Source of the DNA: a virus
IMG/VR virus record: IMGVR_UViG_3300018080_000138
Location: 32,709 to 96,708 of that record
DNA length: 64,000 nt
Direction: 5' to 3' (one strand)
Shown: one piece after another, positions 15,068-61,330 of the stretch
Position numbering within the stretch: position 1 is the first letter of the stretch
Layout: each line of letters starts with the position of its first letter
Program-made: the position numbers and the translations under genes
The notes under the pieces: model-generated
The model's database searches: none
The model's input: only the letters and a program-made list of their open reading frames with translations
Told to the model about the DNA's origin: nothing

Positions 15068-15946
15068 ATGTTTATCCCATATCAGGACGTTGAGAGGTTG
15101 GGTAACAGTGAAGTTGAGGGAATTCTCAATGGAAAATGTTATATTTTTCCAAAGTTGGATGGTACATGTTCATCATTGTGGTATAATAATGGTATACAGG
15201 CTGGCAGTAGAAGAAGGCAGTTAAGTATTCATAGTGATAATAGAGGATTTTATAAATCCACCTCTACTAATATTAGATTCATGAAATTGTTTAAAGAATA
15301 CCCTAATCTCATGTTATATGGTGAGTGGTTAGTTCTGCATACTATTAAGGATTACCTTGACTCTGCATGGGGAAAGTTTTATGTGTTTGATATATTGAAA
15401 GTCGGTGCTTCAACACTAACCTATTTGCCATATATTCTATACGAGGATATCCTTGTAAAGTTTGGTATTGATTTTATTCCATGTATTGGTGTGTTGGTTG
15501 ACCCAACAATTGATGATGTGAAAAAATATCTTGATAAAAATACATATTTAATGAAGAAGGGGTATGGGGAAGGTATTGTCATTAAAAATTATGATTTTGT
15601 CAATAGGTATGGAAGGACGACATGGGCAAAATTAGTTAGGGATGAGTATAGTCATGAAAATCGCAGAAAAAAGAAAAAAGTGGATAAGTCCTTTGTGGAA
15701 GAAATGATAGTTGAGAAGTTTGTTTCTCGTCATCTTATCGATAAAGTCTATGCTAAGATATGTAGTGATAATGGTGGGTGGAGTAGTAAATTTACCCAAC
15801 AATTGTTGAATACGATATTTTATGATTTAGTGAGGGAAGAATCATGGAATATGGTTAAAAAATTTAAATATCCAACAATTAATTATAAGGTATTAAAGGC
15901 TGTAACATTTAGTAGGATAAAAGTAATTAAAAAAGAATTGTTTTAA
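15068..15946 (+). CDS. RNA ligase, Rnl2-like nucleotidyltransferase
   Basis: All the ligase nucleotidyltransferase motifs are present: motif I FPKLDGTCSSLW with adenylated Lys29, motif III LYGEWL, motif IIIa FYVFDIL, motif IV GEGIVIKNYD and motif V WAKLVRDEY. The 292-residue length and the small C-terminal helical domain fit Rnl2-type RNA ligases, which seal nicked RNA, for instance tRNA cut by host defences. It starts 2 bases after the preceding gene. A structured-RNA region and a tRNA-like element lie 3-6 kb downstream, but no link between them is shown. Confidence 0.85.
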   Translation: MFIPYQDVERLGNSEVEGILNGKCYIFPKLDGTCSSLWYNNGIQAGSRRRQLSIHSDNRGFYKSTSTNIRFMKLFKEYPNLMLYGEWLVLHTIKDYLDSAWGKFYVFDILKVGASTLTYLPYILYEDILVKFGIDFIPCIGVLVDPTIDDVKKYLDKNTYLMKKGYGEGIVIKNYDFVNRYGRTTWAKLVRDEYSHENRRKKKKVDKSFVEEMIVEKFVSRHLIDKVYAKICSDNGGWSSKFTQQLLNTIFYDLVREESWNMVKKFKYPTINYKVLKAVTFSRIKVIKKELF

Positions 15947-32997: not shown

Positions 32998-34059
32998 ATG
33001 CTAAAAATATTATTGCTAAGAGTAGTTTCTGATAATAAAGGTGATGATATGATTGCCGAGGCCATTAAACAGGGATTTAGGCAGTCAATGGTTAAAATAT
33101 CGTTTACAGAAATATCAGTAAAGGAAAAAGTCGGATGTAACGCAGTTAATTATATAAATACATTTGATGCAGTTATCTTAGGGGGTAGTGGATTATTTGT
33201 GAACCATAAGTTTGACTCAGGATTTTATTTTAATTGTAGACCTGAGTTTTTTGATAGAATAAAAATTCCATTATACATTATTGGGGTTGGTAGTAACGAT
33301 AATTTTAAATACTCAAGTTATGGCAAGTTAAAGGAAAGAACAATAGCCAATATTAAAAAACTTATTGGGCGTGCTAAGTTTACATGGGTTAGGGATAATC
33401 AAACAAAAAATTTGTTACTTAGTAATGGAATTAGTGATGTAGTGTATATTCCTTGTCCTGTTCTTGCAATGGGTAGTTTATTTGGTAGTTCAGTAGATAC
33501 TGATAGTCCTATGTCTGTGTCTATATCTTTTGGAAAGCATGGAAAGTATGTAAGTAGTGTGCATGATTATTTGGTGGTGTGTTATGCAAAAATATTAAGA
33601 AGGGTATTAAATGAGTTTGATATTAATATTAATTTTATTGCACATAGAGATATAGATTATGATTCCTATAATGATTTGGTTAATAGAAAAGAATTTAGAG
33701 ATGATAAGGAAAAATTTAAATTTACATTAACTAATTCGCCTTATATAATGAATAAACTTTACTCAGAGAGTATGTGCCATATAGGAGTATATTTACACTC
33801 AAATATTATTGCATTTAGTAATGGATGTCCTGTGAATATACTTGGTTATGATAAGAAGTGTAAAGCATTTTATGAAGATATTGTAAAGGATAATGAGTTA
33901 TGTACATATAATTTGCTTCATAATATTAATATTAGTATGATTTATAGAGCAGTTATCAGTAGTTTACATAGGTGTAGAGGGAGCTTGTATGCTATAAAAG
34001 AACAAGATAAGATTATCCAGACATTATCGGGCATCGCAAGGAAAATTTATTTGTCATAA
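32998..34059 (+). CDS. Polysaccharide pyruvyl transferase-like protein
   Basis: The 353-residue protein follows the PF04230 pattern: KGDDMIAEAIKQGF near the start, DAVILGGSGLF, IPLYIIGVGSND, RAKFTWVRDNQTKNLLLSNG and the late GVYLHSNIIAFSNGCPVNILGY with KAFYEDI. Members add pyruvyl ketals to sugars or act on related surface polymers. It opens the large glycosylation region. The substrate is unknown. The preceding gene ends 6 bases upstream. Confidence 0.8.
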   Translation: MLKILLLRVVSDNKGDDMIAEAIKQGFRQSMVKISFTEISVKEKVGCNAVNYINTFDAVILGGSGLFVNHKFDSGFYFNCRPEFFDRIKIPLYIIGVGSNDNFKYSSYGKLKERTIANIKKLIGRAKFTWVRDNQTKNLLLSNGISDVVYIPCPVLAMGSLFGSSVDTDSPMSVSISFGKHGKYVSSVHDYLVVCYAKILRRVLNEFDININFIAHRDIDYDSYNDLVNRKEFRDDKEKFKFTLTNSPYIMNKLYSESMCHIGVYLHSNIIAFSNGCPVNILGYDKKCKAFYEDIVKDNELCTYNLLHNINISMIYRAVISSLHRCRGSLYAIKEQDKIIQTLSGIARKIYLS

Positions 34060-35895: not shown

Positions 35896-36143
35896 TAGTT
35901 TATATAACACAGACAATAGATGGAAAGAAAATAACAAGAGACATTGAAGATATGGTAGATGGAAGTTATTGTGGTATAAGGTCTGTAAAGAATTATGGTA
36001 CGATACTTGGTGCTGCAAAACTTATTAGATTTGGTGGTAATTTGGTTGCAAACATTTATACCACTAAAAATGAAGGTATGCGGTATAATTATTATTTATC
36101 AGTAAAAGAAAGGGTATCATTAATTGCAGTCAAAAAAGCTTAA
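35892..36143 (+). CDS. Small hypothetical protein
   Basis: An 83-residue protein of mostly strands (MIVYITQTIDGKKITRDIEDM, GGNLVANIYTTK, RYNYYLSVKERVSLI). It overlaps the glycosyltransferase by 4 bases (ATGA) and the MurB-like gene by 20. The function is unknown. Confidence 0.55.
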   Translation: MIVYITQTIDGKKITRDIEDMVDGSYCGIRSVKNYGTILGAAKLIRFGGNLVANIYTTKNEGMRYNYYLSVKERVSLIAVKKA

Positions 36144-36960
36144 GAGAAGAAGAACGAAATTGGCCGGTTATACATCTATTGGAATAGGTGGTAGTGCACC
36201 TTTATATATTCCCAAGTCATTAGATGAATTAAAAAGGTTTATCGATTTACATAGACATTATAGGTGCATCGGTAGCGGAACAAATATTTTATTGACATTT
36301 GATAAAAGTAATATCCCATTTATTAGTTTAGGAAACTTTAGTGAGATAAAGAAGTATGGTGATATTTTTTGTGTTGGAGCTGGTTGTTTGTTATCCGTTT
36401 TTGCAAAATATACCACATTAATGGGATATACTGGATTGGAGTGGGCTGTTTATGCATATGGAACAGTTGGTGGTGCAATAATTGGAAATGCAGCAATGTA
36501 TCGTAATAATCCAATAAGTAGTAAACTTGCAGTTGTCACCACATTACGAGGTGGATCACAAGATTTTACTATGTATATTAAAGATGAGTTGAAGTTTCGT
36601 TACCGTGAGTGTAGTTTACCATGTAATGATATAATTGTAAACGCAACATTTTGTCTTACTAAAGGTAGTAGTAGTGTAATAGAAAAAAAATTGAGGTTAG
36701 CAAAAAATGTTAGACGGGCACAATTGTTTTGGTGTAAGGGGTATAAAAGGTTTGGTAATTTTTGGAAGGATTATCATATAATAAAAGAAAATATATTAGA
36801 TATACAGGTTTTAGAAACAGACAAGTTACTTATGCCTACAATGTTACCTGGTTGGATATTGAATAAAGGTAGTGCAACTGCCAAGGACATTCTTTTATTT
36901 GCTGATGCTGTTGAGAAAGATATACAGGTTAAGTTAAGAAGAGAAGTAATAGTGTATTGA
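36124..36960 (+). CDS. murB: MurB-like FAD-binding protein
   Basis: The 278-residue protein matches UDP-N-acetylenolpyruvoylglucosamine reductase. It has TSIGIGGSAPLYI, the GSGTNIL FAD loop, LEWAVYAYGTVGGAIIGNAAMY, KFRYREC with Arg161, WILNKGSATAKDILLFADAVEKD and the final RREVIVY with Glu274. MurB makes UDP-MurNAc for peptidoglycan. At the expected catalytic Ser segment (family G-S/C-x-FKNP) the chain reads FGNFWKDY, with Asn212 instead of Ser. It starts at TTG 36124 behind AAAGGG. Either the active site is altered or it reduces another enolpyruvyl or sugar substrate. Confidence 0.8.
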   Translation: MQSKKLKRRRTKLAGYTSIGIGGSAPLYIPKSLDELKRFIDLHRHYRCIGSGTNILLTFDKSNIPFISLGNFSEIKKYGDIFCVGAGCLLSVFAKYTTLMGYTGLEWAVYAYGTVGGAIIGNAAMYRNNPISSKLAVVTTLRGGSQDFTMYIKDELKFRYRECSLPCNDIIVNATFCLTKGSSSVIEKKLRLAKNVRRAQLFWCKGYKRFGNFWKDYHIIKENILDIQVLETDKLLMPTMLPGWILNKGSATAKDILLFADAVEKDIQVKLRREVIVY

Positions 36961-37913
36961 TGAGAATAGTGTTTATAAATTGTATTAATAGTTTTAAGAA
37001 TGAAGCCAGTTCACATAGGTTTTGGGCTGAAGAATTTTTAAACCAGGCATCAGATATATTATTCTTAACAAAACATAATTGGAATATTAATGAGATAGTA
37101 AATTTTAAACCACAACATATTCATTTTGCAAGTGACGCGTTGCCAAGAAGTGTGTGGATGCCGGTAAATAAAATTAAGAAATTAAGAAATAAATTAAATA
37201 GTGCTAAATTAAACACAGTGATCACTTCATATAGGGGTGGTGTTGGAAAGGAAGGTGAACTACTTGAGGTATTAAATGGTTTAGTGGATAAAGCTTTTGG
37301 TTCAACAGATTTTTACAGTAATCAGGAGTGGTTACCAACGGCGTCAAATCCATTATTTTGGAATGGGGTGAGAAGGGGCGGTTTATGTGGTATCATATAT
37401 ATTGGACATGCTTCAGAGGAGCATATAAAGATAATGCGAAAAAGAGGTATTTATTTTACAAAACATAAGTATTTAAAGGCATTACAAGGGCGGACAAAAT
37501 TAACCGTAGTTGGATCTGGATGGAAACGATTTGGTATAAGGCATGAGATACCAACTAATACGTATGAGCAGAATAGAAATTATTATTTAAACTCGACGAT
37601 CGGATTGAATATAGTTCATGATGATTTACGAAAATATACAAAATACTTTTCTAATAGATTAATTCACATGATGCAAACAGGACTTCCATGTATTACACCA
37701 TACCAACCTAACTTAGAAAAAGTGTTTAAATATGGTGAAGTCATTATGTATAAGAACATTAATGATTTATTATTAAAGGTTATTTATTATTTGGATGAGA
37801 CAAATAGAGATGAGTTACGTAGAATAGCCGCAAAAGGAAAGCATCTTGTATCTACTGTTTGGAATCCGAAAAACTTAGTTAGAAAAATATTAAGTGTTGA
37901 GAGGAAGCAATGA
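36960..37913 (+). CDS. GT-B glycosyltransferase, local family A copy 1
   Basis: A 317-residue CgeB-like GT-B protein. Landmarks are FKPQHIHFASDALPRSVWMP, ITSYRGGVG, CGIIYIGHASEEHI, NTYEQNRNYYLNSTIGLNIV and SNRLIHMMQTGLPCITPYQP, the donor-side motif. It is most similar to the protein at 42872 and shares 51 identical bases with that gene. I use ATG 36960, in a TGATG overlap with the murB-like stop. Substrates are unknown. Confidence 0.7.
   Translation: MRIVFINCINSFKNEASSHRFWAEEFLNQASDILFLTKHNWNINEIVNFKPQHIHFASDALPRSVWMPVNKIKKLRNKLNSAKLNTVITSYRGGVGKEGELLEVLNGLVDKAFGSTDFYSNQEWLPTASNPLFWNGVRRGGLCGIIYIGHASEEHIKIMRKRGIYFTKHKYLKALQGRTKLTVVGSGWKRFGIRHEIPTNTYEQNRNYYLNSTIGLNIVHDDLRKYTKYFSNRLIHMMQTGLPCITPYQPNLEKVFKYGEVIMYKNINDLLLKVIYYLDETNRDELRRIAAKGKHLVSTVWNPKNLVRKILSVERKQ
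37217..37246 (+). repeat. 30-base identity shared with 43108-43137
   Basis: AGTGATCACTTCATATAGGG and the next 10 bases are identical at 37217-37246 and 43108-43137, in the segment encoding ITSYRGGVG of two paralogous glycosyltransferases whose surrounding DNA has diverged strongly. Confidence 0.85.
37655..37705 (+). repeat. 51-base identity shared with 43525-43575
   Basis: The segment encoding RLIHMMQTGLPCITPYQ is identical over 51 bases at 37655-37705 and 43525-43575, ending ACACCATACCA. Flanking codons differ at many positions, so selection on protein alone would not keep the synonymous sites. Recent gene conversion or recombination between the two genes is the likely cause. Confidence 0.88.
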
Positions 37914-45892: not shown

Positions 45893-47335
45893 ATGAAAGA
45901 TGAAAAGAAAAATATAGTAGATGGTTATATTCTTGGTGATGGTAGTGTTGTATCGTCTAAGGATTTTGTTAAAAAAATAGTATCCGCTAAGAAAGTAACT
46001 AAAAAGGCATTGGTCGATTATTCAGCCGATAAGATAATAGAACCACCTTATAATTTTTCAAATTTGGTAGATTTACTTGATCAGGATACCACTCATGCAC
46101 GGTGTATATATGCAAAGGCAGCAGACTTGGCTGGTAATGGATGGCAGATTGTAAAGGATAAAAATCATAAAAAAACATATAAGCGGGATGCGTTGATCGC
46201 AAAAAATTTTTTTTTAAATTCCAGTGATATGGGTTTTATGGATACGTGTAGAAACACATCTCTTGATTTTTGGATAACTGGAAATGGATATATGGAAATG
46301 AAAAGATCATTAGATGGATATCCTGCAAAGTTATCGCATCTTGATAGTACTGGTATTTATATACGAGAGGATGACCTTGGTTATGCTAAAATTACTGATA
46401 GTGGTGATAATAGGTATTATATGAAGTATGGAAGTATGATAAAACGCGATAAGAATAGGATAGTTGACCGAACATTTATTGATCCTAAAACAGGTGAGAT
46501 AGATGATAAATTAGGAATTCAGAATTCAGCAACTGAGTTAATGCATTTTAAGTTATATCGACCAAAAAGTAAATTTTATGGTATTCCAGATTATATCTCA
46601 GGAATAAGACATTTACTTGGAAACAAGAATGCAAGTAATTATAACTTACAGTTTTTTGAGAATAATGCTGTTCCTCAATATGCTATTTTGGTAATGGGTG
46701 GACGTTTGGATAATGATTTGACCGCATTAATAGAACATTACTTTAAATCTGATATAAAGGGAAATTCTCATAAAACATTAGTTTTATCAGTCCCTTATAA
46801 AGATGTTGAGATAAAGTTTGTACCATTGTCCGTGGAAATGAAAGACCAATCATTTGCTGATTATAAAAAAGATAATAGAAATGATATTTTGGTTGCGCAT
46901 GGTGTTCCACCAATGCGGGTAGGTATTATTGAGACAGCACAGCTTGGTAGTGGTTCTGGAGAGAGTCAGGCAGAGAATTATAAAAGGACAATAATTGAAC
47001 CGAGTCAGGCAGTATTTGAAAATATATTAACAAGATTAATACTTCAGCGGGAATTTGGTATTTTTGGCTGGTTATTTGCCTTTGATGATATAGATTTTAG
47101 GGACAAGGATGCACTTTCAAAAATTGCTGCGGTATACCTTGAGAAAGGTGCCATCACATTAAATGAGGTGAGAACGGAGTATTTAGGAGTTGAACCATAT
47201 AAGAAAGGTGGAGATAAGGCATTTATTATTGCTGGTAATAGGATAGTATATATTGATACTATGGAAGAAGAAGAAGACAGAGAAATTGTTGATATATTAC
47301 GAAGTCATTATGAGGAGACAGTTAAGTTACTATGA
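45893..47335 (+). CDS. Phage portal protein (HK97/PBSX type)
   Basis: The 480-residue protein follows the portal pattern: EPPYNFSNLVDLLDQDTTHARCI near the start, DLAGNGWQI, SLDFWITGNGYMEMKR, ELMHFKLYRPKSKFYGIPDYISG, FFENNAVPQYAILVMGG and APVPPMRVG-like VAHGVPPMRVG. Portals form the ring through which DNA enters the head. It is followed by MuF, protease and capsid genes in the usual order, but the terminase lies 35 kb upstream. Confidence 0.9.
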   Translation: MKDEKKNIVDGYILGDGSVVSSKDFVKKIVSAKKVTKKALVDYSADKIIEPPYNFSNLVDLLDQDTTHARCIYAKAADLAGNGWQIVKDKNHKKTYKRDALIAKNFFLNSSDMGFMDTCRNTSLDFWITGNGYMEMKRSLDGYPAKLSHLDSTGIYIREDDLGYAKITDSGDNRYYMKYGSMIKRDKNRIVDRTFIDPKTGEIDDKLGIQNSATELMHFKLYRPKSKFYGIPDYISGIRHLLGNKNASNYNLQFFENNAVPQYAILVMGGRLDNDLTALIEHYFKSDIKGNSHKTLVLSVPYKDVEIKFVPLSVEMKDQSFADYKKDNRNDILVAHGVPPMRVGIIETAQLGSGSGESQAENYKRTIIEPSQAVFENILTRLILQREFGIFGWLFAFDDIDFRDKDALSKIAAVYLEKGAITLNEVRTEYLGVEPYKKGGDKAFIIAGNRIVYIDTMEEEEDREIVDILRSHYEETVKLL

Positions 47336-50639: not shown

Positions 50640-51833
50640 ATGGAAAGATATATTAAGCTAACAAATGCACGAAGTATTACAATAGATTTGTTTGGAGTTA
50701 CGAGAAAGTTTAGACAGGGTATTTGTTCGTTAGTTAGTGAAAGAGAATACTCTTATTTAATGCAAAATCAGTATGGAGTCCTTTTTACTGAGGTAAAGAA
50801 GAATGTCTTTGATGGTCAAGATAAAAAAATATATGATTTTGAGATGCTACAGTTTAATTCCCATAAAGAAATATTAAGTAGAAGAAATAAGGTAAAGAAG
50901 ATAGATATGAGTAGTTTGAAGGATAATAGAATATTGTTCGTTAGACCTGGTGGAATAGGTGATATTCTTTATACATTTTGCGTTGCTTCATATATTAAAA
51001 GTATAGAGAGTTCTGTGCGAATAGCATTGGCATCGGGAAAAAAATATCTAAAACTTTTACCTTTTACCAGGTCAATAGATTGGGGACTTGAGTATAATGG
51101 AAATATCTCAAGTGAAGAATTTGATCAGGTAGCAAGTTTTATTGGTGCGGTTGAAGCTAACAAGAAGGCAGAAAAATTACATTATGTCGATGCTTATTAT
51201 GATTGGTTAGGGATTGATTATAACAGTGTCCCGGAAGAATATAAAGTACCAAAATTATTTTTAACGGATACTGCGAAAAAAATTGCAGATGAGATATGGG
51301 AAAGATGGAGTCTGGATAAGCACATTACAATAGGACTTGCGTTACGTGCAAGTTCAAAGCTTAGATCATGGCATCCTGAGTATAATAAAAAACTTGCGTT
51401 GGCATTTGCTAAAAGGGGCATAAAAGTGTTATTATTTGATAGTATATCAACTCTTGAGTTTGGTGGGAAAAATATACTGTCATATTGTGGAAATCTTGGA
51501 TTAGAAGGATTAGTTGGCTGTGTTTCAAAACTTGACTTATTAATTGCGCCGGATACGGGGTTATTACATATTGCTGGTAGTTTAGGAATTCCTGCTGTTG
51601 GAATATACTCATCATTTAATCCTGAGTTGAGAGTAAGTAAGTATAAAAATGTTTTATATACAAAACCATCATTTAAGTGTGCACCATGTTATCATCATAT
51701 TGAGTCACAGTGTAAAAGTAAATCACTGGGTGATAACCCACCTTGTATGACGGGTATAACACCAAAAGAAGTATTTTTATTGGCAAGAAAATTAATACAT
51801 AATACAAGAAAGATTGATATTGCAAGACTTTAG
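50640..51833 (+). CDS. GT9 glycosyltransferase with N-terminal extension
   Basis: In this 397-residue protein, residues about 95-397 are GT9: ILFVRPGGIGDILYTFCVASYI, LALRASSKLRSWHPEY, KLDLLIAPDTGLLHIAGSLGIPAVGIYSSF and a final Cys cluster (FKCAPCYHH, CKSK, PPCMTG). The first 60 residues (YIKLTNARSITIDLFGVTRKF, REYSYLMQNQYGVLF) are not part of GT9 and look like a small phage head protein or binding domain. Fused beside the capsid gene, the extension could direct the enzyme to the capsid, which is inference. Confidence 0.75.
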   Translation: MERYIKLTNARSITIDLFGVTRKFRQGICSLVSEREYSYLMQNQYGVLFTEVKKNVFDGQDKKIYDFEMLQFNSHKEILSRRNKVKKIDMSSLKDNRILFVRPGGIGDILYTFCVASYIKSIESSVRIALASGKKYLKLLPFTRSIDWGLEYNGNISSEEFDQVASFIGAVEANKKAEKLHYVDAYYDWLGIDYNSVPEEYKVPKLFLTDTAKKIADEIWERWSLDKHITIGLALRASSKLRSWHPEYNKKLALAFAKRGIKVLLFDSISTLEFGGKNILSYCGNLGLEGLVGCVSKLDLLIAPDTGLLHIAGSLGIPAVGIYSSFNPELRVSKYKNVLYTKPSFKCAPCYHHIESQCKSKSLGDNPPCMTGITPKEVFLLARKLIHNTRKIDIARL

Positions 51834-52506
51834 TAGTATATGCATTGTTATCCCGTACTATAATGCATTAACATATCTTAATAATGCAGTAAATAGTATT
51901 ATTGAAACCACAAATAATTCCATAAATATTTTAATAGTTGATAATAACTCAGATAAACCTTTTTCAGTTAAAGGAAGAAAGATAGAAGTTATTAGAAATG
52001 TTAATAATTTAGGTTTTACAAAGGCAATTAACCAAGGGATAAAGTTATATAGGAATTGTGATATAATTCCTTTTAACTCAGATAGCATTGCATTACCAAA
52101 TTGGATTGAGAATTTATATATAGCAGCATATTCAAGAAATAAGGTTGCTTTGGTGTGTCCAAGACACATTATTGGTAATGGTGTAAAGAAGAATACGGCA
52201 ATAAATAATTTAACATCTCCACAACCATTTTATGATAAAAATGGTTATCGACTAATGCGATGGGCAGGTTTTACATGTGTTTATATAAAAAGAAGTGCAT
52301 TAGAGGATGTTGGATTATTAGATGAGAAGTATTGGCACTTTTCATCAGATGAGGAATGGTGTAATAGAGCACGGATGAAAAACTGGAGTATTATTTATTG
52401 TAATACTGCAAGTGTTAAACATATAGGCGGTGTATCATATAACATACTTAAAAAAAGATCACCAAAGATTGTGCAGAATAAAATAGATAAAGGACTTAGA
52501 CTATAA
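51814..52506 (+). CDS. GT2-type glycosyltransferase
   Basis: A 230-residue GT-A fold protein starting at TTG 51814 (or 51820): CIVIPYYNALTYLNNAVNSII, ILIVDNNSD, NLGFTKAINQGIK, DIIPFNSDSIALPNWIENL and the late DEKYWHFSSDEEWCNRARMKNW, matching rhamnosyltransferase-like GT2 enzymes (SDEEWC as ED-type base). It overlaps the GT9 gene by 20 bases. Confidence 0.82.
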   Translation: MILQDFSSICIVIPYYNALTYLNNAVNSIIETTNNSINILIVDNNSDKPFSVKGRKIEVIRNVNNLGFTKAINQGIKLYRNCDIIPFNSDSIALPNWIENLYIAAYSRNKVALVCPRHIIGNGVKKNTAINNLTSPQPFYDKNGYRLMRWAGFTCVYIKRSALEDVGLLDEKYWHFSSDEEWCNRARMKNWSIIYCNTASVKHIGGVSYNILKKRSPKIVQNKIDKGLRL

Positions 52507-52516
52507 TAGGTAGACT

Positions 52517-53233
52517 ATGAGAGAAAAAAAGATGGACGTTGCAATAGTTATACCATCAGCAGGTGGTGAGAGTACCTTAAGAAGGTGCGTGGAGAGTATT
52601 ATACGAAATACTAAGACACCATATAAAATTTTTATAGTAGATCAAGGAGAATTAGGTTGCTCATCCTATTGTTGTTTTTTAGAAAAAAAATATTCTAATA
52701 TCTTTATCCATTATAATAGTAAGAATGAACCTGGATCAAAAGGGTATAATAGAGGGATAAAGTCAGCCTATATAAAAAGTAATTTTACTCATCTTTGTTT
52801 TTTAGATGACGATATATTGGTATTAAAACCTGGGTGGTTAAGTACGTTGGTTGATGGTATGGATACTGATCCGGGTGTTGGTATAATAGGATATGAGATG
52901 TGTAGTACAATACCCCCAAATCTTGGTGGTTATGTTTTAGAATTTATGAGCTGTTGTATGCTTTGTAGTAGAGAGTTGATCGATACAATAGGCTTAATGG
53001 ATGAATCATTATTATGGCATTGTAATGACTCAGATTATTGCCGTCGGGCATGGCAAAATGATTTTAAGGTAAAGGTATTGTATGCTAATGATAATAAAGA
53101 TATGAGCAATGATTTTTTATATCACTCACACCAAGTAGGAACAAAAAGGTGTGAGGGGGAAAAATTATTGAGAGAAAAAACGTATAAGGTATTTGAGAAA
53201 AAATGGAATAATGTAATTATAGAAGCATTATGA
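52517..53233 (+). CDS. GT2-type glycosyltransferase
   Basis: A 238-residue GT-A fold protein: VAIVIPSAGGESTLRRCVESI, KIFIVDQGE, GSKGYNRGIKSAYI, LCFLDDDILVLKPGWLSTL (DDD metal site) and DESLLWHCNDSDYCRRAW. It is the second GT2 in a row and follows the same layout as the one at 51814. Substrates are unknown. Confidence 0.82.
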   Translation: MREKKMDVAIVIPSAGGESTLRRCVESIIRNTKTPYKIFIVDQGELGCSSYCCFLEKKYSNIFIHYNSKNEPGSKGYNRGIKSAYIKSNFTHLCFLDDDILVLKPGWLSTLVDGMDTDPGVGIIGYEMCSTIPPNLGGYVLEFMSCCMLCSRELIDTIGLMDESLLWHCNDSDYCRRAWQNDFKVKVLYANDNKDMSNDFLYHSHQVGTKRCEGEKLLREKTYKVFEKKWNNVIIEAL

Positions 53234-53300
53234 AAAGATATTAGGATATATGATTTAGGATGGAAGTTAGGAGTTAATTTTATATTTTAGAAGGTGAAGA

Positions 53301-53540
53301 ATGCCGTATAGTTACCCAAAGAATATACCAGTATGGGTTAAGGATTTACCAAAGAATGCACAGAAGATAGCAATAAGAGTATTTAATAAGGTTTATAAAA
53401 AAACAAAAGATGAAGATAAGGCAAGACAAGCTGCATGGTCGGCAATAAAAGAAAAATATAAAAAGAATAAAAAAGGAATATGGATAAAGAAAATTTTAAG
53501 AAATGTGTTTTGGATACCAATTACCAATGATGGAGAATAA
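53301..53540 (+). CDS. ChaB-like protein
   Basis: A 79-residue protein, MPYSYPKNIPVWVKDLPKNAQ, then IAIRVFNKVYKKTKDEDKARQAAWSAIKEKYKK and GIWIKK, matching the ChaB fold (PY...LP..V..LP..AQ-x-I-x-x-xFN, AW-x-x-v-x-x-Y-x-K). ChaB domains occur in bacterial and phage small proteins of uncertain function. AAGGTGAAGA precedes the ATG. Confidence 0.85.
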   Translation: MPYSYPKNIPVWVKDLPKNAQKIAIRVFNKVYKKTKDEDKARQAAWSAIKEKYKKNKKGIWIKKILRNVFWIPITNDGE

Positions 53541-53541
53541 A

Positions 53542-53994
53542 ATGTATGTTTGTGCAAGTTGTCGTACAGGATATAGATATATTGATGTTGCAACGTGTTT
53601 AAAGTGCACAAGTCCTGTGCTCCCTGAGTATTTTAAGTATTATGAATCTGTATTAGATGAAATTAATGAGGTAACGAAGTCGTTTGGTATAATTTCAGCC
53701 AAAAAATTAGCTGTAGTATTAAAAAATATCTATGATGATAGTTTAGATGAATCCATAGATATTAGTGTTACTGGTGTTCGACTTGTACAGACATTAAAGA
53801 GGTATGTAGTTAATGATTATTTGAATAAAAAGGATAAAACCGCTGTAAGATTTGCGATTGTTTCGTTATCAAGGATAATGTTGAAGTATCAATTTAATAC
53901 AATACCTAAGAAGAAGTTATTGAATAAATGTCATAGTGTATTAGCATTAGCGATAACATTAGAATTAAAGAAAGCAAAAAAGAGATTTTATTGA
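53542..53994 (+). CDS. Zinc-ribbon helical protein
   Basis: I use ATG 53542, with GGAG 7 bases upstream, rather than starts at 53503 or 53530. The 150 residues begin MYVCASCRTGYRYIDVATCLKC, a C-x2-C-x(11)-C-x2-C zinc ribbon, followed by a basic helical domain (about 25-150; FGIISAKKLAVVLKNIY, VRLVQTLKRYVVNDYL). This resembles late transcription factors in layout, but no family is proven. Confidence 0.6.
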   Translation: MYVCASCRTGYRYIDVATCLKCTSPVLPEYFKYYESVLDEINEVTKSFGIISAKKLAVVLKNIYDDSLDESIDISVTGVRLVQTLKRYVVNDYLNKKDKTAVRFAIVSLSRIMLKYQFNTIPKKKLLNKCHSVLALAITLELKKAKKRFY

Positions 53995-55058
53995 TGAAAA
54001 TAATGCATATCGGTGGTTCACATAGCTTGCATGTTAAAGATATAGTATGTGAACTTAAAAAATTAGGTTATCAACAAACAATAGTATCTTATCGTAATAC
54101 TAAGATGACATGTCAAGATATAGAAACGTATTATTATAATTATACCAGGTATAATACAAAGTGGTGGAAAGATATTAATCTGAGAAATTTTATGGTTAAA
54201 TTACTTGTCGATAAAAGGCCAGATGTTGTTCATGGTCATTCATTAACCTATGCTTGTATTCCGACATGGATAGCGGCGGAGTTAGGTTACAAAACTTGTA
54301 TTACACCATGGAGTATTGACTCAATAATACATGAGAGAAGACGTTCAAAATTTTATGAGACAAAGTGTCTAAAAACTATCTCAGGATTTTTATATCCTTT
54401 ATCGTGTAAGCTATTTCAGAATTTTTATAGTGTTAAGTTGACACATAAGCAAGTTATATTTAGATCATTAGTTGATTTATCATTTAAGTCAAAGATAAGT
54501 GCTGATCCCGTAATTTTAGCACCACGTCCAACAACTGAAAATTATTACCAAGAATTTTTGATAAGATCAATACCTTATTTAAGAAAGATAAAAAATAATT
54601 TGTTAGTTATTTTTTTAATTGGTCAGTCAAGATCAGCAGGTTTGTCGTATATGAATAAACTAAAAAAAATTGCAAAGCAGAAGGATGTATTAAATAATTG
54701 TATTTTTATAGATAAAACTATGACCAGAAGATGGTTAGTAGATAAGATATGTGATTCAGCAATAGTATACTCAGTTGCTAAACATGATTCAGGATTTTCG
54801 GGTGTAACACTTCAGGCACTTGTGGCAGGTAAGGTTGTAGTAACACAAAAGACTAAGCAAAATGAGTTTTTAGATGGTAGGTGCCTAAGAGTGGACTTAA
54901 ATTTTAATGATATTAAAAATGCTCTTTTATATGCCGTTAGTAATTATGTCTCATCACAAACATTTTATATGAGAAAAAATAAAGATTTAAAAAGATATGA
55001 TAAAGAACAGATGATTAAGAATTTAGTAGGATTTTATAATGGAAGTTTACCTAAATAA
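53994..55058 (+). CDS. GT4-like glycosyltransferase
   Basis: A 354-residue GT-B protein. Landmarks are IMHIGGSHSLHVKDIVCELKKLGYQ, then KRPDVVHGHSLTYACI, the linker strand NNLLVIFLIGQSRSAGLSYMNKL, and the donor-side KHDSGFSGVTLQALVAGKVVVTQ with the GT4 E-x7-E replaced by FSGVTLQALVAG. A TTG at 53991 is also in frame. It overlaps the acetyltransferase gene by 20 bases. The acceptor is unknown. Confidence 0.75.
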   Translation: MKIMHIGGSHSLHVKDIVCELKKLGYQQTIVSYRNTKMTCQDIETYYYNYTRYNTKWWKDINLRNFMVKLLVDKRPDVVHGHSLTYACIPTWIAAELGYKTCITPWSIDSIIHERRRSKFYETKCLKTISGFLYPLSCKLFQNFYSVKLTHKQVIFRSLVDLSFKSKISADPVILAPRPTTENYYQEFLIRSIPYLRKIKNNLLVIFLIGQSRSAGLSYMNKLKKIAKQKDVLNNCIFIDKTMTRRWLVDKICDSAIVYSVAKHDSGFSGVTLQALVAGKVVVTQKTKQNEFLDGRCLRVDLNFNDIKNALLYAVSNYVSSQTFYMRKNKDLKRYDKEQMIKNLVGFYNGSLPK

Positions 55059-55539
55059 CATTTGTAGTAAGCATATGACATATTTTCTTGATCTGAATAA
55101 TTTTGAAGAAAATAGAATGTTATTAATGAGAAAAAGAAAACTTAGTAGGGATTGGTTCAATAGATATATAAATAACTTGGCATTGTATATAGAGTATGGT
55201 TTTTCAATAGTTGCTGATGGAAATGTTTCTGGGTTTTGTGGGATATTTGATATTAGTATAGATGCAAAAAATGCATGGATTTGGATATTGATAGATAAAA
55301 AGCAAAGAAGAAAAAGAATTGGTATTGCAGCATTACGTAAATTATTATTTTTTTCATTTGATATATATGGATTTAAAATAGTATATTTAAAGGTGCTTAG
55401 TAATAATACTCCGGCGATAGATTTGTATAAATCAGTTGGGTTTGCTGTTGTTGGAAAATTAACTGATAATTTCGTTTATAAAAATAGTTTAGTCGATACA
55501 TTGATAATGGAATTGCAGTCAATTGATTATAGTAGTTAA
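55039..55539 (+). CDS. GNAT N-acetyltransferase
   Basis: The 166-residue protein has the GNAT acetyl-CoA loop as KKQRRKRIGIAALRKLLFFSF, followed by IVYLKVLSNNTPAIDLYKSVGFAVVGK, the motif-B strand and helix. It resembles enzymes such as PseH/WecD-type sugar N-acetyltransferases in clusters with DegT aminotransferases. It may acylate an amino sugar made by the genes at 57241 and 58962. Confidence 0.82.
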   Translation: MEVYLNNICSKHMTYFLDLNNFEENRMLLMRKRKLSRDWFNRYINNLALYIEYGFSIVADGNVSGFCGIFDISIDAKNAWIWILIDKKQRRKRIGIAALRKLLFFSFDIYGFKIVYLKVLSNNTPAIDLYKSVGFAVVGKLTDNFVYKNSLVDTLIMELQSIDYSS

Positions 55540-55556
55540 TTTAATATGGGTATTAT

Positions 55557-56444
55557 ATGAGAAAATTAACAAACATTGATACTGAGTTTCCAAAAGTTAT
55601 TTTAATAGATAATTTTTCTGGATGTAATTTAAAATGCTCAATATGTGACCATAAAAATATTACCAGGTATAGAAAAGTTGAAAGGATGAAGTTAACCCTG
55701 TTTTCTAAGATAATTAATGAAATTTCGGATATAGATAAAGATACAAGAGTATGGATGATTTATTTTGGTGATCCATTTTTATGTTATGATATGCCTGAAA
55801 GAATAAGGTATGCAAAGAAAGAAGGATTGACCGATGTTGTTTTAAATACTAATGGTGTCGCGTTGACTACATCTAAAGCAATTGATTATATAAATGCTGG
55901 ACTGGATACATTATATGTTGGTATTGATGCATTTTTACCATTAACTTATAAAAAAATACGGGTTGGTGGTGATTATATGTTAGTGGTAAGAAATGTACTT
56001 GAGTATAGAGATTTATTGGAGGAGTATGGAACTGGCACACAAAAACTTTATGTTCAGTTTGTTGAGACATCTCTTAATATTGGTGAGAAGGATAGATTTT
56101 GTGCATTTTGGAAAGAATTTGGTGTTGCTGTAAAGGTAAGACCAATGGTGTCGTGGGGCGGGCTTATAGCAAATGGTATTAAACCTTTAAAGGATAGAGT
56201 ACCATGTGGTTGGGTAATGGATACATTACCAATTCTTTCTGATGGTAGAGTAGCCGCATGTGCTACAGATGTTCATGGACGATTGATACTTGGTAATATA
56301 AAGAATAAAACAATTAGGGAAATATGGAATGGTAGTCATAAATTAGTAAGAAAATTGCATTATAATAAATATTGGGATAAGTTACCAAGATTGTGCAAAA
56401 AATGTACAGATTGGAATAGTTATAGTAGTGAGGTAGTTGAGTGA
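55557..56444 (+). CDS. Radical SAM protein with SPASM-like C-terminus
   Basis: A 295-residue protein with the iron-sulphur motif CNLKCSIC (CxxxCxxC) in FSGCNLKCSICDHKN, IYFGDPFLCYD, VVLNTNGVAL and LYVGIDAF. A C-terminal block follows (VPCGWVMDTLPILSDGRVAACATD, GNIKNKTIREIWNG, LCKKCTDW) like SPASM or twitch domains that bind an extra cluster. These enzymes do radical chemistry on peptides, sugars or other substrates; here a sugar or virion-protein modification fits the context. Confidence 0.88.
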   Translation: MRKLTNIDTEFPKVILIDNFSGCNLKCSICDHKNITRYRKVERMKLTLFSKIINEISDIDKDTRVWMIYFGDPFLCYDMPERIRYAKKEGLTDVVLNTNGVALTTSKAIDYINAGLDTLYVGIDAFLPLTYKKIRVGGDYMLVVRNVLEYRDLLEEYGTGTQKLYVQFVETSLNIGEKDRFCAFWKEFGVAVKVRPMVSWGGLIANGIKPLKDRVPCGWVMDTLPILSDGRVAACATDVHGRLILGNIKNKTIREIWNGSHKLVRKLHYNKYWDKLPRLCKKCTDWNSYSSEVVE

Positions 56445-56524
56445 TACCGCATTAGAACAACTAACAATAAAAAGGTTGAATTCCAAGTAATTTTTGAAAT
56501 TAAGTATATTTTTAGGAGAATTAG

Positions 56525-57244
56525 ATGAGGATAGGGATATTACAGCCTGGGTATTTGCCATGGCTTGGATTTTTTGATCAAATGGATAAAGTCGATTTAT
56601 TTATTCTTTTGGATACTGTCCAGTATACAAAAAATGACTGGAGAAACCGTAATAGAATTAAAACTTTTCAAGGTATGCAGTGGTTAACTGTGCCAATATC
56701 TTTTAAGCTTGGTGATACAATAGCAGAGGCATTAGTTGTTGATTCTAATTGGAGAAGAAAACATTTGAGAGCGTTAGAACTTAATTATGGTAGTGCAAAA
56801 TATTTTGATTGGTTATTTCCGGATTTGAAGATACTTTTACAAGCAAGATGGACATCGTTAAGTAAATTAAATTTTATGTTATTATCATTTTTAAAGAAAA
56901 AATTGAGTATCAGTACGAAATTGGTTTTAATGTCGTATTATATCGATAACAAAGCAAGCATACATACTTATATTACTGATAAAAGTAAAGATATTAAACC
57001 AAATATGAGATTGGTTAATATTTGTAAGGAGTTTGGTGCAACAGAGTTTTTAGAAGGAAAAAGTGGTTGTAATTATATGGATATAAAGTTATTTGAAAAA
57101 AATGGTATACATGTAGAATTTCATGATTTTAAGCATCCGGTATATCCACAGTTACATGGTGAGTTTATACCATATTTATCAATAGTAGATTTATTATTTA
57201 ATTGTGGTGATAAGTCATTATATTATCTAAGAGGAAATAGATGA
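56525..57244 (+). CDS. WbqC-like family protein
   Basis: A 239-residue protein matching the WbqC family: GILQPGYLPWLGFFDQMDKVDLFILLDTVQYTKNDWRNRNRIKT in pieces, WLTVPISFK, then LELNYGSAKYFDWLFPDL, NICKEFGATEFLEG and FHDFKHPVYPQLHGEFIPYLSIVDLLFNCG. WbqC proteins occur in O-antigen and surface-sugar clusters and are suggested to acylate amino sugars. AGGAG precedes the ATG. It overlaps the dehydratase gene by 4 bases. Confidence 0.88.
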   Translation: MRIGILQPGYLPWLGFFDQMDKVDLFILLDTVQYTKNDWRNRNRIKTFQGMQWLTVPISFKLGDTIAEALVVDSNWRRKHLRALELNYGSAKYFDWLFPDLKILLQARWTSLSKLNFMLLSFLKKKLSISTKLVLMSYYIDNKASIHTYITDKSKDIKPNMRLVNICKEFGATEFLEGKSGCNYMDIKLFEKNGIHVEFHDFKHPVYPQLHGEFIPYLSIVDLLFNCGDKSLYYLRGNR

Positions 57245-58230
57245 GAATATTAGTAGCAGGTGGTGCTGGATTTATAGGATCAGATTTTGTTCGATTATTG
57301 TTTAATCAGACAAATCATAATATAGTAATTGTAGATAAATTAACTTATGCGTCAGATTTAAGAAATATCGAAGATATTTTAGCTTCTGAAAGGATACAGT
57401 TTTTTCAAGGTGACATAAGAGACTTTGGTTTTATGTATGATATTATCACTAATGTAGATTATATAATAAATTTTGCCGCAGAAACACATGTTGCAAGATC
57501 AATTTTTACAACATTAAATTTTGCAGAAACGGATTTTATGGGTACTCAAGTTATCTGTGACTGTCTTGTTAGAAATAGACATATTAAGAGGTTTATTCAT
57601 GTATCTACATCAGAAGTATATGGAACGGCATTAACAGAGTATATGCATGAGGATCATCAATTAAATCCAAGATCACCATATGCCGCTGCAAAGGCAGCAG
57701 CGGATAGGTTGGTATATTCGTACATAAAAACATATAATATTCCAGCCTTAATTGTTAGGCCATTTAATAATTATGGAATAAGACAACATCCGGAGAAGCT
57801 TATACCAAGGTTTATAACTAATTCAATTCTTGGAAGAGAGTCATTAATCCATGGCGATGGAAATGCACTAAGAGACTGGGTATCAGTCAGAGATACATCA
57901 TCCGCAATATTATTGTTACTTACTTATGAAGATATTGATGGTGAGGTATTTAATATAGGAACAGGAAGATCATTATCAATAAAATACATTGCTAAAAGAA
58001 TAGAGGGTAAATATAGGTATGTTGAAGATAGACCTGGTCAGGTTAGTCGACATACAGCACATGTGGGTAAATTATGGAAGCTTGGTTGGCAACCATCTTA
58101 TAGTTTTGATGATCATCTAAAAGTTATTTTTGATTGGTATTCTAAAAATAAAGAATGGTGGATAGATAAAATTGAATATGCCAATGTTCCAATAAAAAAT
58201 GGTAATGGGACTGGTTTAATTTATAGGTAG
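57241..58230 (+). CDS. RmlB-like nucleotide-sugar 4,6-dehydratase
   Basis: A 329-residue extended SDR enzyme: VAGGAGFIGSDFVRLL (NAD loop), VDKLTYASDLRNIEDI, FAAETHVARSI, HVSTSEVYG, YAAAKAAADRLV (catalytic Tyr-x3-Lys) and RPFNNYGIRQHPEKLIPRFI. KLTYAS and FAAETHV are characteristic of dTDP-glucose 4,6-dehydratases, though the usual HVDRS is HVARS. It should make a 4-keto-6-deoxy sugar nucleotide for the aminotransferase at 58962. The start overlaps the WbqC gene by 4 bases (ATGA). Confidence 0.88.
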   Translation: MRILVAGGAGFIGSDFVRLLFNQTNHNIVIVDKLTYASDLRNIEDILASERIQFFQGDIRDFGFMYDIITNVDYIINFAAETHVARSIFTTLNFAETDFMGTQVICDCLVRNRHIKRFIHVSTSEVYGTALTEYMHEDHQLNPRSPYAAAKAAADRLVYSYIKTYNIPALIVRPFNNYGIRQHPEKLIPRFITNSILGRESLIHGDGNALRDWVSVRDTSSAILLLLTYEDIDGEVFNIGTGRSLSIKYIAKRIEGKYRYVEDRPGQVSRHTAHVGKLWKLGWQPSYSFDDHLKVIFDWYSKNKEWWIDKIEYANVPIKNGNGTGLIYR

Positions 58231-58239
58231 GAAAAATTT

Positions 58240-58965
58240 ATGGTATGTAGAATTTGCAGTAGTAATGATACTGTGCTTGAGTTATCAGTTACTAAAAGAA
58301 TAATGGGTCAGACAATTTTTAAGGTGTTTAAGTGTAATAGATGTCGTGGGTGGTTTGTTGGAAATAATATTTCAGAACAGGCATGGAGGACATTTGTTCT
58401 TCAAAATAAAGTTTCTATAGGAACAACAAGGACAGATTCTAATAGCAGAATAAAAAATGTATACCCAGTTTATTTGGCACACATGGAAAAGGTAATTCCA
58501 TTAGAAAGTGTTTCTACTTTATTAGATATTGGATGTTATACAGGTGGTTTTATGGATGTTTTATCAAAAAAATATCCATTAATACTTTTTAAAGGTATTG
58601 AACCAAATAAGCGGTTTTATGACATTGCTTTAGAAAAAAGGTTTGATGTTGATAATAAATTTTTTGATACTTGGAGTTCAACGATTTGCTATGATATAGT
58701 CGTACTTAACCAGGTATTAGAACATGTTTGCTATCCTGCAACTATATTAACTAAAGCAATAGATTATTTATCAGATGATGGGTATATGCTTATTACAATA
58801 CCTAATGTTAGTTCGATTTTGGATTCTATTTCGATTCCACAACACCTTAGTTATTTTAACCAAGAAAGCATTGATGCTTTATGTGATATATGTGGTATTG
58901 ATATTATTTATGATGCCGTGTACTTAAATTCAGGAAGATTACTTGTATGTAAAAAAGGTGTGTGA
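58240..58965 (+). CDS. SAM methyltransferase with N-terminal zinc motif
   Basis: A 241-residue protein. The N-terminus holds CRICSS and CNRCRGWFV, a four-Cys zinc ribbon. Then come TLLDIGCYTGGFMDVL (SAM motif I), GIEPNKRFYDIA, VVLNQVLEHVCYP and DDGYMLITIPN. Zinc-ribbon plus type-11 methyltransferases of this form act on sugars in many surface-glycan clusters. The stop overlaps the aminotransferase start. Confidence 0.85.
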   Translation: MVCRICSSNDTVLELSVTKRIMGQTIFKVFKCNRCRGWFVGNNISEQAWRTFVLQNKVSIGTTRTDSNSRIKNVYPVYLAHMEKVIPLESVSTLLDIGCYTGGFMDVLSKKYPLILFKGIEPNKRFYDIALEKRFDVDNKFFDTWSSTICYDIVVLNQVLEHVCYPATILTKAIDYLSDDGYMLITIPNVSSILDSISIPQHLSYFNQESIDALCDICGIDIIYDAVYLNSGRLLVCKKGV

Positions 58966-60110
58966 GATTAATGAATGTAAAATTTCATAGGCATAATTTA
59001 GGTAATTATGAACTTTCAGCAGTAGGCAGTGTTTTTAAGTCTGATTTTTTAACTACGGGTGAGAATGTGAAGGTATTTGAGCGGGAGTTTGCAATGCTTA
59101 CAAAAATGAAGCATTGTGTTGGTCTTAGTTCATGTACTGCTGCATTACACCTTGGTTTAGAGTATGTAAGATATATTATGGGGAATAATAAGTTTGTGGT
59201 TGCAACAACTCCGTTGACATATGTCGCAACCGTGTTGCCGGTAATAGCAACTGGTAGAAGATTATTATTTATTGATGTCGAAGAAAATACAGGATTATTA
59301 TCTACTAATGAATTACTTAAAGTTGCAGATGATGTTGATTTAGTAATTCCAATACATTTATATGGACAGGTATGTGATATGGTTCAGATAGGCGCAATTG
59401 CTGAACACTTTGATTTTTTAATCATGGAAGACAGTGCACATGTAATACATGGTATGGGGCATGGAAATTATCCTGGATATGAGTTTAATAGTATTGGTGC
59501 TGCGTATAGTTTTTATGCAACAAAGGCAATAACATGTGGTGAGGGTGGGGCATTTTGTACAAACAATTTGATGGTTACCGATTTTATTAGAAAGATGGCA
59601 CAACATGGTATTAATAAAACTGCATATGAGAGGTATAATGGTATTGATAGTTGGGATTTAGAGTATATTGGTTGGAAGTATAATATGTCAGATATTCAGG
59701 CAAGTATTTTACTTGCTCAATTAAAAAGAGAATTGGATTTTTGGGATAGAAGAAAATTAAATGAGTTTGCATACAGGAATTCATTGGATGATATTGTTGA
59801 TTTTCCTGAGATAAGTGATTCGCATGCGCATGATTACTTAATGACAACTATGTGGGTTGATCCTGGTAAGAGAGACAAGATAATGGAAGAATTAAGGAAA
59901 TTAGGTATTGGTATTAGTATGCATTACAAACCATTACATCTAATACGTAAGATTGCTGTGTATAAGGATTTGATAAACAGAACTTTGGCATTTCCAAATG
60001 CTGAGTTAATAGGGAGCAGAACAATTTCACTACCAAATTATCCATTATTGACCAAGAAGGAAATCGAGTATGTTATTGACTCAGTAAGAAAGGTAGTAAG
60101 ATCGGTATGA
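58962..60110 (+). CDS. DegT/DnrJ/EryC1 sugar aminotransferase
   Basis: A 382-residue PLP enzyme: FLTTGENVKVFEREFA, GLSSCTAALHLGLEY, TPLTYVATVLPV, DLVIPIHLYGQVCDM, LIMEDSAHVIHG and SFYATKAITCGEGGAFCT with the PLP lysine, then WKYNMSDIQASILLAQL. It would transaminate a keto-sugar nucleotide, most simply the product of the RmlB-like enzyme. The GTG at 58962 overlaps the previous stop; ATG 58971 is an alternative. Confidence 0.9.
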   Translation: MRLMNVKFHRHNLGNYELSAVGSVFKSDFLTTGENVKVFEREFAMLTKMKHCVGLSSCTAALHLGLEYVRYIMGNNKFVVATTPLTYVATVLPVIATGRRLLFIDVEENTGLLSTNELLKVADDVDLVIPIHLYGQVCDMVQIGAIAEHFDFLIMEDSAHVIHGMGHGNYPGYEFNSIGAAYSFYATKAITCGEGGAFCTNNLMVTDFIRKMAQHGINKTAYERYNGIDSWDLEYIGWKYNMSDIQASILLAQLKRELDFWDRRKLNEFAYRNSLDDIVDFPEISDSHAHDYLMTTMWVDPGKRDKIMEELRKLGIGISMHYKPLHLIRKIAVYKDLINRTLAFPNAELIGSRTISLPNYPLLTKKEIEYVIDSVRKVVRSV

Positions 60111-61330
60111 TAGAAATAAGAACAAACATTAAAAAAAATGTAATAGAGTATACAATGTCTAAGAAGTTGAGGTATATGAAAAATCAAAGGTTTGTTATTA
60201 GTTATACTTTTGATTTAAAATCATTTCCTTTACATCTTGCGAATTTTATGGTAGGAATTTTATTATCTGAGCATATTAGTTGGACAGGTGAGGATGTGCT
60301 GTTTTCTTCATTAACAAAGAAGGAAGTTAAATGTATCAATAAACATATCTTAAATAATTTTATTGCTAATCCGTATAAAAGAGTAATAAATAAATGTCCT
60401 GAGGTTCATTCTAAAAATATTAGTAAGTCTGAGTTAAACTTTGATGGTGGTCCAGTAATTACAATGAACGGGATGGGAAAGGATGGATTAGCACTTGCAA
60501 GCTTAGTAAGAGAACTTAATATTGAGCTGGTGAGTTGTGTAGTTGCCAATCAGTATAAAAATATGTCCTTATGGAAAGATAGGGCAAGAGCAATGAAAAA
60601 GTTTTATTCATCGAAGGGAATAATTCCGGCCTGGGTTGGAACATCTTATTTTCGAGGAAATAGTTATAAAATAATTCCTTGGCAAGTGTTTGCTTTTCCT
60701 GTTGCTTGGTTTTATAGCTCACGTGATATATTAATTGGATTTAATCTTGGAGACTCAAAGTTTTACTTAGGAAATGGATATTCACCAAGACCTAATGTTA
60801 CTGTGTTTTCATTTGACGCAATATCAAAGGCAACGGGATTTAGGATTGGAAATCCATTTTGGGGAGTAAGTCATTTAGTGATACAAAGATTGATTTTAGA
60901 AAGGTATCCTGAGGTTGCGCAGTTTCAAAGGAGTTGTATGCGTGGAATTCCTTGGTGTGGTAGGTGTGGAAAGTGTCTTGGAATAAATATTCTTGCACGT
61001 GCAGGCGGTAATACTACTAAAAAGTTGAGTCTTAGGAATATGAGAATTCACTGTGATACGTCTCATTGGAGGAGAGCGAATCCTCTTTCTGCTGATGTTT
61101 ATATGGAAGCAGAAAAAAAATTACGTGGTGAAGAATATCAGTTGTGGATAGAAAAATTAAACTTAAATGCACAAAAGTTTGCGTGGCATCCTACTAAGGT
61201 AATGAAGATATTAAAGGAACATGTATCTTGTACTAAAGTTGATCCGGGAAAGAATGGTTTGGGTTATACAAATGTACCATCTATATGGTCGAATATATGT
61301 CTAAAAGATAAATGGAGTATAAATGTCTAA
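60107..61330 (+). CDS. PP-loop (HUP) ATPase-like protein with Cys cluster
   Basis: In this 407-residue protein, FDGGPVITMNGMGKDGLALASLV resembles a PP-loop (SGGKDS-like, here NGMGKDG), then LVSCVVANQYKNM and an IIPW-VFAFPVAWFYSS block. The Cys cluster FQRSCMRGIPWCGRCGKCLGI recalls QueC- and MurL-like enzymes that activate a substrate by adenylation. The fit is moderate: the PP-loop deviates and the substrate is unknown. It lies within the sugar cluster and overlaps the aminotransferase gene by 4 bases. Confidence 0.6.
   Translation: MIEIRTNIKKNVIEYTMSKKLRYMKNQRFVISYTFDLKSFPLHLANFMVGILLSEHISWTGEDVLFSSLTKKEVKCINKHILNNFIANPYKRVINKCPEVHSKNISKSELNFDGGPVITMNGMGKDGLALASLVRELNIELVSCVVANQYKNMSLWKDRARAMKKFYSSKGIIPAWVGTSYFRGNSYKIIPWQVFAFPVAWFYSSRDILIGFNLGDSKFYLGNGYSPRPNVTVFSFDAISKATGFRIGNPFWGVSHLVIQRLILERYPEVAQFQRSCMRGIPWCGRCGKCLGINILARAGGNTTKKLSLRNMRIHCDTSHWRRANPLSADVYMEAEKKLRGEEYQLWIEKLNLNAQKFAWHPTKVMKILKEHVSCTKVDPGKNGLGYTNVPSIWSNICLKDKWSINV

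Follow-up and report, generated by a model that had tools for sequence, protein, structure and literature searches.

A phage MurB-fold protein lacking the catalytic serine may act with a PF04230 transferase in glycan lactylation

The window analysed here, a 64,000-nucleotide stretch of an IMG/VR virus contig of 96,708 bases, encodes a full-length relative of the MurB-fold proteins, with homology far above chance. We think it somewhat probable that this protein is a MurB-fold flavoenzyme recruited from peptidoglycan to glycan decoration, where it would form a two-step module with a transferase of the PF04230 family. In the chemistry of MurA and MurB, enolpyruvyl transfer is followed by flavin-dependent reduction to give a lactyl ether. 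In the proposed module, the PF04230 transferase would move enolpyruvyl from PEP to a hydroxyl group on a sugar, either in a phage-directed glycan itself or in a lipid- or nucleotide-linked precursor of it. The MurB-like enzyme would then use FAD and NAD(P)H to reduce the enolpyruvyl group to a lactyl (1-carboxyethyl) ether, giving the glycan a negatively charged tip. The adjacent glycosyltransferases would assemble the carrier glycan, on the virion or on the host surface; here we infer the acceptor and the cellular target as well as the chemistry of both steps.

The MurB-like open reading frame (Table 1) is free of internal stops, shares 20 nt at its start with the preceding frame and is preceded by GAAAGGG about 7 nt 5′ of the TTG. 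The portal gene lies 9 kb downstream, and no mur gene was found among the typed neighbours in the window. The PF04230 gene is located 2.1 kb from the MurB-like gene in the same operon-like run, and its product scored 92.1 bits against a curated cut-off of 25.3 and kept the His of the LHS motif. A glycan locus was counted as having the module when PF04230 was fused to the MurB-like gene, adjoined it or lay no more than about 2 kb away, and the window was among the loci counted; the four ORFs that separate the two genes speak against a module in the window. When the window PF04230 protein was searched by tblastn against 50,697 phage records, no match was found at E ≤ 1e-4.

Table 1. Coordinates in the window of the MurB-like gene, its proposed partner and neighbouring genes
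Feature	Position	Strand	Evidence
PF04230 polysaccharide pyruvyl transferase, proposed partner (step 1)	32998..34059	+	Pfam E=7.4e-26; single PF04230 of the whole 96.7-kb record
MurB-like flavoprotein, 278 aa, TTG start (proposed step 2: reduction)	36124..36960	+	Profile, phmmer, model
Arg161 codon (= E. coli MurB Arg159)	36604..36606	+	Invariant in 27-protein alignment
Asn212 codon, catalytic Ser/Cys position	36757..36759	+	Alignments; helix-to-motif spacing in two models
Glu274 codon (= E. coli MurB Glu325)	36943..36945	+	Alignments
Glycosyltransferase PF13524, TTG start overlapping MurB-like stop by 4 nt	36957..37913	+	Pfam E=1.7e-14
Glycosyltransferase PF13524	38043..38969	+	Pfam
Glycosyltransferase PF13524	41955..42875	+	Pfam
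Glycosyltransferase PF13524	42872..43780	+	Pfam
Phage portal protein; glycan operon abuts head genes	45893..47335	+	PF04860 E=4.8e-29

Two other regions of the window were also noted. After the capsid-like gene there is a second glycan block (50640-61330) with GT9, GT2, GNAT, radical SAM/SPASM, WbqC, NAD-dependent sugar epimerase/dehydratase and DegT aminotransferase genes, and an RNA ligase gene (15068-15946) has RecA, sliding clamp and clamp-loader genes upstream of it.

That a phage should carry a MurB relative had been read from the sequence in the original prediction, and profiles, phmmer and fold comparison all bore this out. PF01565 (FAD_binding_4) matched the protein at E=1.5e-7 with 31.6 bits, above the curated cut-off of 26.4, while PF02873 (MurB_C) reached 13.2 bits, below its cut-off of 27, though the AlphaFold model covers this domain. 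Eight NCBIfam models matched (best E=4.6e-31), seven of which are MurB models, and the protein stayed under every MurB equivalog cut-off (best 107.8 versus 259). Four solved MurB sequences were matched by phmmer, with E=3.5e-18 for 2gqt over residues 9-275. The AlphaFold2 model, built from an alignment with 12 viral relatives, displayed the complete three-part MurB fold (pLDDT 86.8, pTM 0.83). When it was compared with known structures, all 13 of the 13 MurB entries gave Z scores of 26.5-29.5 (4pyt: Z 29.5, rmsd 2.3 over 273 residues), and the next best chain gave 13.5. We found no close relatives of the MurB-like, capsid-like or portal protein of the window in viral contigs, and none of the window or Natrinema MurB-like protein in cellular genome contigs. 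In the tree of MurB-like proteins the window protein had the longest branch (2.96) and was left unplaced; a single-origin clade of PF04230-paired members was dropped, as the tree requires four changes.

The residues of the active site were compared in an L-INS-i alignment of 27 proteins. The catalytic arginine and glutamate that the original prediction had singled out, Arg161 and Glu274, were retained, the only exception to the latter being one misaligned archaeal row. The segment G211-N212-F213-W214-K215 aligned with G-S/C-x-F-K and placed Asn212 at the position of the catalytic serine. This register is supported by the closer viral relatives (GNFWKDYHII in the window, GGIFKNWHEL in L028) and by the helix-to-motif spacing: nine residues separate the end of the long helix from the motif Gly in the models of both the window protein and L014. 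Another candidate for the serine equivalent, Lys208 (Tyr207/Lys208), came from the more distant comparisons (phmmer to 2gqt and an early MAFFT alignment) and was rejected in favour of Asn212. Neither register put a Ser or Cys at the acid position; the replacement of the serine by Asn212, as first proposed, stood. A second departure lies in the G-I-P-G flavin loop, where Tyr112 stands in place of an almost invariant Pro.

A search for the same substitution in homologues had been suggested, and we found that replacement of the serine recurs but with other residues: Gly in L022, L027 and L028 and Thr in L025, L026 and the Levilactobacillus copy, with Asn in the window protein. Cys occupied the position in L016, L017, L041, L029 and L024, and Ser in the remaining proteins. 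Because three window-like relatives carry Gly, loss of the serine at the MurB catalytic position recurs. With no proton-donating Ser and with Tyr112 in place of Pro, the window protein may be inactive or altered, and the loss of Ser would mean either another proton donor or altered chemistry. In the proposed module the window enzyme would still be a reductase that uses another proton source.

The first clue to a partner was that two plasmid matches of the window protein were beside, or fused to, a 'polysaccharide pyruvyl transferase'. MurB-like genes were gathered from IMG/VR with MurB queries only and their neighbours were inspected afterwards, and PF04230 was found with the MurB-like gene in seven viral lineages, the window counted. 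The two are fused in L014/L015, with the MurB domain first; the genes overlap in L016/L017/L041, where the L016 pair sits between terminase and portal, and in L019/L025, where they belong to a run of head genes that also includes a KDO8P-synthase-like gene, and L025 adds a CMP-transferase. PF04230 adjoins the MurB-like gene in L022 (0 kb) and is 0.6 kb away in L028 and 1.3 kb away in L029. The partners in L022 and L028 are the nearest found to the window PF04230 protein. No PF04230 was present in the contigs of L027 (about 1 kb from the contig end), L023 (near the locus end) or L024 (cut off at the locus start), where a partner may have been missed, and L023 and L024 were dropped as paired cases. 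The INPHARED matches in MT8* and OR84* records were not counted as phage MurB genes, most of them looking bacterial: those translated were canonical murB or, in one case, an E. faecalis capsule locus. Several MT8* records labelled 'Bacteriophage sp.' carry canonical bacterial murB and look like host DNA.

The pairing extends to cells. MurB-like and PF04230 genes were found together on plasmids of Natrinema, Paracoccus, Levilactobacillus, Cetobacterium and Novosphingobium, as a fusion in Paracoccus; Natrinema is an archaeon and has no murein. A record labelled Enterococcus phage (L036, OR846590.1), which looks like host DNA with an apparent E. faecalis capsule locus, encodes a PF04230-MurB fusion of 817 aa, flanked by GT2 genes on one side and Glf/ABC transporter genes on the other. 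The same gene order is described for the cpsF-less form of the E. faecalis cps locus (PMC1899230). CpsG of E. faecalis (EF2489), annotated as a 'MurB family protein' (PMC2766626), is such a PF04230-MurB fusion, and the CPS-C/D glycan of E. faecalis carries lactic acid at O-3 of Galf (PMC3060912). This link is one of locus to product, not of enzyme to product. Among the publications searched, we found none that joins the CpsG fusion, the cps locus and the capsule lactic acid; an earlier description may exist. CpsG resembles the window pair in that a surface-glycan locus brings together a MurB-type and a PF04230 domain, whereas it is one fused chain, keeps the serine (NHGSTF) and belongs to a bacterial capsule.

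PF04230-MurB fusions thus occur in both domain orders, which argues for consecutive steps. Together with the pairing and the lactic acid capsule, this suggests that PF04230 supplies the enolpyruvyl step. On balance it is about an even question whether part of the PF04230 family transfers enolpyruvyl and does not form ketals and, with a MurB-fold reductase, provides a MurA-independent route to lactyl ethers on glycans that is common to bacteria, an archaeon and several phage lineages, one phage group having a Ser-less reductase. PF04230-type enzymes are treated as ketal-forming (reviewed in PMC6801904), and in the literature we found no demonstration of one that makes an enolpyruvyl ether. The ketal pyruvyl transferases CsaB and Pvg1p belong to the same family as the window partner; the products of the characterised members, however, are pyruvate ketals, and no accompanying reductase is described. 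A further comparison is offered by a Rhizobium gallicum plasmid (L011, 4537-6882), where a MurB-like gene comes after a MurA-type gene in the company of flippase and glycosyltransferase genes, in apparent non-murein use. This EPS-type pair likewise joins a PEP-dependent transferase to a MurB-like reductase outside murein, but the transferase has the EPSP-synthase fold (PF00275), not PF04230.

The change at the acid position bears on another reading, unlikely though deserving some weight, in which the Ser-less members (the window protein, L022, L027 and L028) are not reductases: they would either hold the enolpyruvyl glycan as partners without catalytic activity or put the flavin to another reaction. 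Their Asn or Gly would fit this, as would the additional Tyr112 in the window flavin loop and the closeness of the PF04230 partners of L022 and L028 to that of the window; E. coli MurB Ser229Ala was reportedly crystallised with substrate bound (1uxy), which we counted on the same side. However, the FAD loops and the Arg and Glu are kept in all of the Ser-less members, and Glu274 or Tyr112 could donate the proton. Ser or Cys persists elsewhere among the paired proteins, and the ancestral pair was therefore presumably reductive. It is improbable that the two enzymes work independently, with PF04230 forming a conventional pyruvate ketal and the MurB-like protein acting on a different unsaturated sugar intermediate of the same glycan. 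The characterised PF04230 enzymes that we found in the literature all form ketals and the window genes are not adjacent, but the fusions in both orders and the reported lactic acid ether of the E. faecalis capsule point the other way. Decay into a non-functional gene, which the long branch and the two active-site departures might indicate, is slightly more improbable: the ORF is intact, tightly packed and overlapping, the predicted fold is confident and complete, and Ser has also been replaced in other viral lineages whose pairs are intact.

Least probable of all is a genuine MurB (EC 1.3.1.98) that serves host peptidoglycan synthesis in infection or produces UDP-MurNAc. The fold and the sequence similarity in a phage gene would agree with it, and the window protein shares with MurB the complete fold, the FAD-binding loops and the catalytic Arg and Glu. 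It differs from MurB in that neither Ser nor Cys is there to donate the proton, Tyr takes the place of Pro in the flavin loop, the scores fall under all the equivalog cut-offs, and the context offers PF04230 as a partner in place of mur genes. The recurrent partner is PF04230, not a mur gene, and homologous pairs reside in a murein-less archaeon and in capsule/EPS loci, which makes the support of host wall synthesis envisaged in the original prediction unlikely; resistance to wall-targeting defence, offered there as well, found no support, the recurrent partner again being PF04230. Its third suggestion, a sugar of the muramic type destined for the glycan cluster around the gene, came closest to the evidence. 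Our interpretation moved from wall synthesis to glycan lactylation because the PF04230 pairing recurs in viruses, on plasmids and in a capsule locus.

Many bacterial surface polysaccharides carry lactic acid ethers, which influence antibody recognition. In the literature we found no assignment of enzymes for their biosynthesis outside muramic acid, and glycan lactylation by the proposed module would name a concrete gene pair for them, with fusions and one locus-to-product match. That phages carry the PF04230/MurB-like pair suggests that virions or host surfaces are decorated with charged glycans. The mechanism could also be studied on these naturally occurring variants of the MurB fold, whose acid position is Ser, Cys, Thr, Gly or Asn.

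Some viral copies of the PF04230 gene are disrupted. Compared with the near-identical L019 (8771-9538), a PF04230 gene with an in-frame deletion of about 480 nt between short GGCAGCG repeats was found in L018 (6152-6439), L020 and L021; the deletion takes the half with the conserved His, and the MurB-like gene is intact. The PF04230 gene of L026 is also broken. Furthermore, the head-gene run of L018 and L025 holds a KDO8P/NeuB-like synthase, a weak GT29 sialyltransferase-like gene, the MurB-like/PF04230 pair and, in L025, a cytidylyltransferase, which suggests a nonulosonic-acid-type pathway.
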